54,786 bases of DNA from an uncultured Pelagibacteraceae bacterium (GTDB taxonomy: Bacteria; Pseudomonadota; Alphaproteobacteria; Pelagibacterales; Pelagibacteraceae). Under the pieces are notes generated by a model. That model was not told where the DNA came from. It was given only the letters and a program-made list of their open reading frames with translations, and searched no databases. Positions 2,381-4,166 of the stretch are shown here, piece after piece; the stretch's first letter is position 1, and every line of letters begins with the position of its first letter. A program made the translations under genes and the position numbers. Where the stretch lies: the NCBI GenBank assembly GCA_902551445.1, contig CACDDB010000003.1:1-54786 (forward strand). The letters run 5' to 3'.

Positions 2381-2935
2381 CTATTTTTCTATTACAAAAA
2401 TTCCTAATTTAGAAAATAAATTTTTATAGCTTAAATTTTGACTATTAATTTTTATATTTTTTTTATTACAATAATTTACAAAATCCTTAATAGTACACAT
2501 ATGAAGATTTGGAGTGTTATACCACTCATTAGGTAAATCTTTTGTTATTGGCATTGTACCTTTAAAAAGTAAATGTAATCTAACTTTCCAATATCCAAAA
2601 TTTGGTATTGTAACAATTGCTTTTTTACCAACTCTTAATAATTCGGTAATGACATTTTCTGGATTTAGAAATGCTTGAAGCGTTTGACCTAAAATAACAT
2701 AATCAAAGGATGATTTAGGAAATTGTTTTAAATCTTTTTCAGCATCTCCTTCAATAACTGTTAATCCTTTTTCTATACATTTTTGTACATTACTCTTTGA
2801 TATTTCCAAACCTCGTATATCATTTGTAATATTTTCATTAATATATTTCATTAATTCACCATCACCACATCCAACATCTAAAACTTTTGAATTTTTTTCT
2901 ACTAATTTTGCTATTACGTTAAATTCTTTTTTCAT
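2381..2935 (-). CDS. metW: Methionine biosynthesis protein MetW
   Basis: 184-residue class I methyltransferase-fold protein of the MetW family. The SAM-binding motif [12 protein letters not shown] (about residues 19-30) is followed by GLEIS and by [13 protein letters not shown], a MetW signature; later segments ([21 protein letters not shown]) also fit. MetW is known to pair with MetX and to be needed for efficient homoserine acylation in some proteobacteria; its exact chemistry is less clear. It overlaps the end of metX by 17 bp, consistent with translational coupling, and lies under the metX riboswitch. Confidence 0.92.
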
Positions 2936-4052
2936 TTAGTTTATTATATGATGTGTTTAAAAAATTTTTAATTGTATTAAGAAAATCAGGAACGTCTAAT
3001 AGAAATGAGTCGTGACCTTTATCAGATGTTATTTCAGCAAATCCAACATTTTTTCCAATAGAATTTAGTGCAATTACTATTTCTCTATTTTCAGAGGTTG
3101 GGTATAACCAATCAGAAGTAAATGATATGATGAAGAATTTCGTATTAGACTTTTCAAATGCTTTTGAAAGGTTTCCATTAAATTGTTTTTTAAGATCAAA
3201 ATAATCCATTGCCCTTGTTATATAAAGATAGCTATTTGCATCAAATCTATCTACGAAAACTGAGCCTTGGTATCTAAGATAACTTTCAATTTGAAAATCT
3301 GCATCAAAACTAAACTTTAAGTCATCTCTTTCCTGAAGTTTTCTTCCGAATTTTTCTTCCAAACCTTTTTTTGACAAATAAGTAATATGTGCTGCCATTC
3401 TTGCAACAGCCAATCCTTTATCCGGTGATTTTTTGTATTCTCCATAAAATCCATTTGACCAGTTATGATCTGCCATAATTGATTGTCTTCCTAGCTCGTT
3501 TAGCGCAATATTTTGCGCAGAATGACTTGCAGTACAGGCTATAGGTATAGCAGTTTGTGATCTATGTGGAAAATTAGAAACAAACTGTAAAACCTGCATA
3601 CCACCCATTGAACCCCCTAAAACTGAAAATAATTTTTCAATTTTAAAAAAATCTAATAAATGATATTGAGCATTAACCATATCATTTATAGTTATAACTG
3701 GAAATTCTGTTGCAAAATTTTTATTAGTTTTTGGATTAATGTTACTTGGACCATAAGAACCCATACATCCTCCAATTACATTTGCACAAATTACAAAATA
3801 TTTTTCTGTATCTACAGCTTTTCCAGGTCCTATGAGGTAATTCCACCAACCTTCTTTTTTAGTTATGGGATTTATACCCGCGGCAAACTGATCTCCCGAA
3901 AGAGCATGAAACGCTAAAATTGCATTATCTTTTTTATCATTAAGCTTACCATAGGTTTCGTATGCTAAAGGAAAATTAGATATAGTTTGTCCACAGTCAA
4001 GCTTTAATGGCTTATCAATAATTATTTTTTTTACTTTCTTTATATCGTTCAT
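2919..4052 (-). CDS. metX: Homoserine O-acyltransferase MetX
   Basis: 377-residue alpha/beta hydrolase-fold acyltransferase that activates homoserine for methionine synthesis. The nucleophile Ser148 sits in GGSMGGMQ; the Asp and His of the triad are in FTSDWLYPT and GHDSFLL near the C-terminus; AFHALSGDQ is the oxyanion-hole region. Acetyl versus succinyl donor specificity cannot be read with certainty. It heads metX-metW-gloB, and its 5' leader carries a SAM-II riboswitch, so high SAM should repress it. No strong Shine-Dalgarno is seen before the ATG; the leader there is AATTCACCAAAAAAAT. Confidence 0.94.
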
Positions 4053-4080
4053 ATTTTTTTGGTGAATTGCTAGGTAAAAA

Positions 4081-4133
4081 AACTTATTTAGCGGTTTTTT
4101 TATAGCGCTCGCAATTCAGTTAAATCAGCGCAT
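4081..4133 (-). promoter_or_regulatory. SAM-II riboswitch in the metX leader
   Basis: The minus-strand RNA contains the P1 stem GCGCU (4131-4127) and AGCGC (4109-4105) enclosing GAUUUAACUGAAUUGCG, then an A-rich linker and GCUAAAU (4092-4086). This order, and nearly the same bases, match what I recall of the crystallised SAM-II RNA from Sargasso Sea metagenomic DNA. The loop and the GCUAAA strand form the pseudoknot that binds S-adenosylmethionine. SAM-II normally blocks translation initiation. Here the 3' strand ends about 33 nt before the metX ATG, and no canonical Shine-Dalgarno lies in it. Confidence 0.9.
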
Positions 4134-4137
4134 AAAT

Positions 4138-4166
4138 TATTTACAGGATACGTATGTATATGTCAA
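4138..4166 (-). promoter_or_regulatory. Promoter of the metX riboswitch transcript
   Basis: A perfect TTGACA (4166-4161, minus strand) is followed after 17 bases by TAAATA (4143-4138); the -10 is weak. A start about seven bases downstream falls near 4131, the first base of riboswitch stem P1, so promoter and aptamer positions support each other. Confidence 0.6.

Follow-up and report, generated by a model that had tools for sequence, protein, structure and literature searches.

On the minus strand upstream of metX, the window (the whole stretch of 54,786 nucleotides that was analysed) carries a SAM-II aptamer, as observed earlier and confirmed here. The earlier reading overlooked a downstream strand at 4063-4073, which complements the aptamer loop and is conserved throughout the genus. 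Our best explanation, to which we give a probability of about 45%, is that the metX(-metW) leader is a two-state SAM-II switch in which SAM turns expression off at the RNA level; transcription most likely terminates at a tract of seven uridines (U7) behind the pseudoknot.

The metX SAM-II aptamer itself is already known and is not new. Meyer et al. (2009) reported SAM-II before metX (SAR11_0217) of 'Candidatus Pelagibacter ubique', in an intergenic region of 191 nt with 22.5% GC (PMC2704228). That leader of strain HTCC1062 belongs to the same riboswitch class, gene, and lineage as the one described here, where the intergenic region has 187 nt; in the available parts of that paper it is listed as a known riboswitch, with no mention of its expression platform or of an anti-aptamer strand. 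Smith et al. (2016) called the metX riboswitch transcriptional, without metX data (PMC5069961). What appears to be new is a conserved anti-aptamer strand in a metX leader that has no terminator, which points to an altered expression platform.

The metX Leader and Its SAM-II Aptamer

The features of the locus are as follows.

4161-4166, minus strand: -35 box TTGACA, in columns about 90% or more conserved among 122 distinct genus leaders
4138-4143, minus strand: weak -10 box TAAATA after a 17-nt spacer, the spacing being kept in relatives
4078-4137, minus strand: SAM-II aptamer, full-length Rfam match (RF01726, 30.4 bits)
4127-4131, minus strand: P1 5′ strand GCGCU (sequence, Rfam match)
4111-4119, minus strand: P2 5′ strand CUGAAUUGC, which forms the pseudoknot and is targeted by the anti-aptamer strand as well
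4105-4109, minus strand: P1 3′ strand AGCGC (sequence, Rfam match)
4095-4101, minus strand: run of seven A (A7), loop L3; pairs with the U-tract in the alternative fold (minimum-free-energy fold)
4083-4092, minus strand: P2 3′ strand GCUAAAUAAG, lacking a Shine-Dalgarno (SD) sequence
4076-4082, minus strand: U7 tract right after P2; proposed release site or arm of an alternative hairpin
4063-4073, minus strand: anti-aptamer strand CUAGCAAUUCA (CUCNCAAUUCR as consensus of the genus), base-pairing with 4108-4118 (UGAAUUGCGAG)
4053-4062, minus strand: A-rich spacer to the start codon, lacking an SD (sequence)
2919-4052, minus strand: metX, homoserine O-acetyltransferase (NF001209, 508 bits, cut-off 331)
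2381-2935, minus strand: metW, overlapping the end of metX (TIGR02081, 226 bits, cut-off 189.5)

The metX start codon lies at 4052-4050 of the minus strand, and the divergent gene upstream of the leader is hisC. The promoter proposed earlier, a TTGACA box with a 17-nt spacer that would start the transcript at the first base of P1, is supported by its conservation in genus leaders, and the placement of the two boxes puts +1 at or near 4131-4133. Since TAAATA matches TATAAT at only three of six positions, the promoter is absent from a strict consensus scan. According to Corbino et al., a promoter placed like this is usual for SAM-II (PMC1273637).

The minus strand from 4131 to 4083 reads GCGCUGAUUUAACUGAAUUGCGAGCGCUAUAAAAAAACCGCUAAAUAAG and continues with U7, ACCUAGCAAUUCACC, A7, U, and the metX AUG. 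The pseudoknot strand extends to G4083, so the aptamer ends 30 nt upstream of a methionine gene, an arrangement conserved in relatives. All five P1 pairs are present around a GAUUU...UUGC loop, and CUGAAUUGC is able to pair with GCUAAAUAAG as the P2 pseudoknot. The elements from which SAM-II had been recognised, namely the P1 stem, GAUUUAA (4126-4120), UUGC (4114-4111), and GCUAAAU (4092-4086, all minus strand), are borne out by the Rfam matches and by conservation in the genus.

In a search of 501 bases with permissive filters, RF01726 scored 30.4 bits (E 7e-4, cut-off 44) and RF00521 matched at full length over 4067-4141 with 26.6 bits (E 5e-4, cut-off 36). When the window's own genome was searched with RF00521, the metX leader had an E value of 1.9e-4 and the next best hit 0.685. 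The covariance search thus gives SAM-II a full-length match that is clearly the best in the genome, but with scores under both cut-offs; an Rfam scan at the gathering score found no match in the searched sequence. Low covariance scores are found throughout the relatives searched for this A+U-rich marine type of SAM-II. SAM-V had no match up to E 10 at the metX leader, and the other permissive Rfam matches (tsr31, AgvB, S15, snoTBR6, sR4, Ysr35) look like chance.

Relatives found with MetX are single-cell genomes of SAR11 (Pelagibacteraceae), which share this leader. Within the order, a lineage model gives hits to the element in 360 of 397 genomes, a count that describes its spread rather than independent significance, as the model was built from such sequences. 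Identity in the aptamer columns is 96% across 122 distinct leaders of the genus, compared to 48% for the spacer before the ATG. Judged from sequence, the SAM-II match and this conservation together are far beyond chance.

A Conserved Strand Complementary to the Aptamer

The collection comprised 125 distinct metX leaders from the genus to which the window belongs; column statistics were computed on 122 of them. After the U-tract these leaders carry CUCNCAAUUC followed by A or G, or a close form, which complements UGAAUUG(C)GAG of the aptamer loop. The columns of this 11-nt element are 96% conserved, equal to the aptamer, with values of 0.91 for the U-tract, 75% for the region from promoter to P1, and 0.48 for the spacer. 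Furthermore, all 125 leaders have an uninterrupted run of five to nine A in loop L3 and five to nine U directly after the G that ends P2, with no gap. The anti-aptamer helix takes up the 5′ strand of P2 and is therefore incompatible with the SAM-bound form.

All seven core pairs of the helix are present in 120 of 122 leaders and all three outer pairs in 118 of 122. The helix almost always contains a single mismatch: opposite C23, 121 leaders have A, U, or C, and the window alone has G, with the neighbouring pair lost instead. This change from CA to AG shifts the single mismatch by one position and retains 10 of the 11 pairs. The last base of the element, A or G opposite U, varies in a manner that preserves pairing. 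The aptamer side hardly varies, and there is accordingly little true two-sided covariation.

When leaders differing in their downstream regions were folded without pseudoknots, 108 of 109 had the central helix in their minimum-free-energy structure, extended by a helix between the A-run and the U-run; the exception, L088, stays complementary and pairs in another register. Shuffled downstream regions reached the native energy in 51 of 4,360 cases. For the window hairpin alone the effect is moderate (-13.2 vs a shuffle mean of -10.2 kcal/mol, with 4 of 40 shuffles as good). The anti-aptamer strand is thus a well-supported conserved feature, for which a function is proposed below.

Three further regularities were considered and set aside. 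The coupling between the lengths of the A-run and the U-run is weak (Spearman 0.27, uncorrected for kinship). A basal third helix between GCUGAUUU and the spacer sequence AAAUCAGC is common in the genus and absent from the window's own group. The spacing from the hairpin end to the AUG is not tight, with a standard deviation of 3.0 vs 2.9 for the spacer itself. In addition, TGAATTG(C)GAGCGCT ... CTCNCAATTCA at 4063-4118 of the window resembles the two halves of an ideal lac operator, a likeness regarded as coincidence because the SAM-II core dictates the left half.

Suppression of SAM binding by sequence downstream of SAM-II has a parallel in the SAM-II/SAM-V tandem of bhmT (PMC11508383). In that tandem, the linker between the two aptamers has a hairpin before U9, whereas the window has a single strand that pairs with the aptamer loop.

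The Start Region of metX

The earlier note had stated that the pseudoknot strand contains no SD sequence and that GCUAAAU ends 33 nt before the ATG, and both statements are correct. The missing SD, which it had taken as the unusual point, is ordinary here, as SD motifs are not enriched before genes of the window. Of 48 long open reading frames in the window, 8% have an SD-like 4-mer upstream vs 7.5% of random positions, and 21% vs 24% have an SD-like 3-mer, in a comparison blurred by taking the first ATG as the start. In leaders of the genus, P2 neither contains nor adjoins an SD, which sets them apart from SAM-II RNAs that occlude an SD.

The predicted cost of opening the region from -20 to +12 in the window is 1.2 kcal/mol in the SAM-bound fold vs 3.3 in the free fold; across 120 leaders the means are 5.4 and 7.4 kcal/mol. 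Since opening costs less in the SAM-bound fold, SAM binding is not predicted to hide the start site, and RNA-level control or an inverted switch is therefore left. These energies do not favour sequestration of the ribosome-binding site (RBS) by either state. The control through an AT-rich standby site suggested earlier is likewise not favoured, as opening is predicted to be no harder with SAM than without it.

Terminators in Sister Lineages

No intrinsic terminator was found between the aptamer and metX in the window, and none of the 125 metX leaders of its genus has a terminator-like site. The same scan scores in 31 of 53 other SAM-II leaders, and most sister lineages have a terminator at the same place after the metX aptamer. 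In the terminator-type SAM-II leaders of Agrobacterium metA (PMC1273637) and Sinorhizobium meliloti metZ (PMC9373788), the aptamer similarly lies just after the promoter start, the target is metabolic, and SAM is expected to turn expression off; the window's genus differs in having no terminator hairpin after the aptamer.

Three genera of the same family (g8, g9, and g10) have GCCCAG-UUUA-GCUGGGC or a variant of it followed by U9, a 7-bp GC-rich terminator. In g8 and g9, the P2 strand AGCUAAA..GGG complements CCC..UUUAGCU, forming an antiterminator roughly as strong as the terminator. The other family, f2, has interrupted hairpins followed by U7-9, which the strict scan missed and which fold at -10 to -16 kcal/mol, and g5 and g7 have weaker A+U-rich hairpins after the aptamer. 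Of three bhmT SAM-II leaders examined from the window's own genus, two keep a terminator. Comparison of sequences thus establishes the aptamer, the complementary strand, the absence of terminator and SD, and the terminators of the sister lineages.

Because closely related metX SAM-II leaders carry terminators, the ancestral control was probably transcriptional. The window's genus forms one clade (99/99) in a tree of partial MetX sequences. Parsimony suggests that a terminator was lost and an anti-aptamer strand gained, the branching among genera being too poorly settled to give the order.

Related arrangements occur at other genes. Many leaders of bhmT, metF, and other SAR11 genes with SAM-II share a terminator of the type CCACCGCUUUAGYCGGUGG-U9, whose CGCUUUAG complements the P2 strand GCUAAAGCG as an antiterminator (L139, L142, L144, L148-L150, L156, L163, L165-L168, L172, L173, L175, L176, L178, L179). 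In g6 (L153, L154, L159), SAM-II lies before metW as the first gene, with a weak A+U-rich hairpin before the start codon. Before metY in the window's genus (L181, L183, L186, L187, L188), a short SAM-II-like element is followed by an apparent SAM-V with a clear SD (AAAAAGGAG). The tandem of SAM-II and SAM-V is a known arrangement, found here before metY.

The Crystallised Sargasso RNA

The 52-mer SAM-II-WT-RS, presumably the same RNA as in PDB 2QWY, the SAM-II crystal structure, occurs exactly in two g8 genomes (L230, L232). Its sequence is UCGCGCUGAUUUAACCGUAUUGCAAGCGCGUGAUAAAUGUAGCUAAAAAGGG (PMC8494917). This Sargasso aptamer is nearly identical to that of the window in P1, L1, and core, and belongs to the same gene, metX. 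Relative to this 52-mer, the window has two P2 positions that are changed on both sides and still complementary (C-G to U-A and U-A to A-U, by inspection of the alignment). The source of the 52-mer is another SAR11 genus, in which the P2 strand ends in GGG(G) and a terminator follows, whereas the window has AAG-U7 and no terminator.

In the two genomes and 15 near matches (within L221-L237), the sequence continues as GG(G)GAUGCCCAGUUUAGCUGGGC-U9-GG-AUG or nearly so. This context contains the terminator GCCCAGUUUAGCUGGGC followed by U9, predicted at -12.0 kcal/mol, in balance with an antiterminator at -12.7 kcal/mol that involves the P2 strand. Most of these leaders have an in-frame AUG at the foot of the terminator, 0 to 2 nt after the G-run, which is too close for a normal SD. 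Reviews treat the crystallised RNA as a model of direct RBS occlusion (PMC10907184; PMC6061858). Its genomic context suggests a transcriptional switch, or one that is both transcriptional and translational. The latter case can be likened to S. meliloti metA, in which a terminator lies between two in-frame AUGs (PMC9373788).

A Proposed Switch and Its Alternatives

For the metX leader we infer how the RNA folds in the cell when SAM is absent, that SAM switches expression off, and that the output step is termination. In the presence of SAM, P1 and the P2 pseudoknot would form once P2 had been transcribed, and the SAM-stabilised pseudoknot, its last pair abutting U7, would take the place of a terminator hairpin. 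At high SAM the product would thus be a leader RNA of some 55 nt, and metX mRNA would not be made. Without SAM, after the polymerase had moved past the U-tract, 4063-4073 would pair with UGAAUUGCGAG and A7 with U7. The resulting anti-aptamer hairpin would exclude P2, most of P1, and SAM binding, and would commit the transcript to expression. Somewhat less probable is the specific form in which, in the genus Pelagibacter, the SAM-bound pseudoknot, fused to the U-tract, itself releases the polymerase, and an anti-aptamer strand that co-evolved with it and is transcribed directly afterwards puts read-through transcripts beyond the reach of SAM, neither a terminator hairpin nor a ribosome site being used.

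Termination at the U-tract is favoured because the U-run follows the last P2 base gaplessly in every genus leader, because sister lineages use termination, and because so strong an anti-aptamer fold would make the switch kinetic and co-transcriptional. For biosynthesis genes that follow SAM-II, the assumption is that SAM turns them off (PMC1273637). Several points count against this reading. The anti-aptamer strand lies after the U-tract, which precludes classical antitermination there; P2 is A+U-rich; and pairing with the A-run also explains the U-tract. A limited literature search turned up no report of a pseudoknot that stands in for a terminator hairpin. Furthermore, in HTCC1062 under sulphur limitation, metY, bhmT, and mmuM went up, and metX is unnamed among the responders in the main text (PMC5069961).

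Control at the RNA level could also be exerted through decay, a reading that we consider unlikely but worth serious attention. With SAM, the 30-nt U/A-rich stretch that separates the pseudoknot from the start codon would be single-stranded and open to endonucleases, and without SAM it would be locked in a hairpin and stable, again giving an OFF switch. The alternative hairpin hides nearly the whole leader, other riboswitches have been reported to expose RNase sites on ligand binding, and in Sinorhizobium SAM-II has an effect on mRNA stability; there, however, the sign is opposite, as SAM stabilised the RNA (PMC9373788). No cleavage site was identified. Translational control is less probable again. 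The pseudoknot could restrict a standby or S1-binding stretch at U7, 24-30 nt before the start codon, so that SAM would lower initiation with no SD involved, and SAM-II control at a distance has been reported for S. meliloti metA (PMC9373788). The site is not closed by SAM binding in the predicted energies, which speaks against translational blocking. Its classical form, with an SD sequestered in P2 as proposed for the crystallised Sargasso metX RNA, can be practically dismissed, and inspection refutes it for the window: P2 has no SD in the genus leaders, and the genes of the window are not enriched for SD motifs.

The same energies, in which the SAM-free fold is the harder to open, are consistent with an inverted switch, in which the anti-aptamer hairpin would block ribosome loading at low SAM and SAM would free the AUG region. 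The mean distance from the 3′ arm of the hairpin to the AUG is 7.7 nt, extra pairing comes with almost all long spacers (59 of 61), and the sulphur-limitation report fits this polarity as well. Still, an acetyltransferase for methionine synthesis that is activated by SAM contradicts the logic of the pathway, and SAM-ON control contradicts the terminator architecture of the sister genera; we therefore regard it as quite improbable. About as improbable is a vestigial riboswitch that still binds SAM and has lost its expression platform, its conservation stemming from the promoter or from some other role of the leader DNA. The genus has indeed no terminator, and a literature search found no published metX response; yet the aptamer and the downstream element stay conserved across many species while the spacer drifts.

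Implications

SAR11 is among the most abundant bacterial groups in the ocean, and metX feeds its methionine synthesis. The best-studied SAM-II structure, cited for direct blocking of the ribosome site, adjoins an intrinsic terminator and a competing antiterminator in two genomes, and its assignment is now testable. If the proposed termination switch is true, closely related bacteria would show a riboswitch in the course of giving up its terminator and acquiring an anti-aptamer strand, so that a change of expression platform could be traced.
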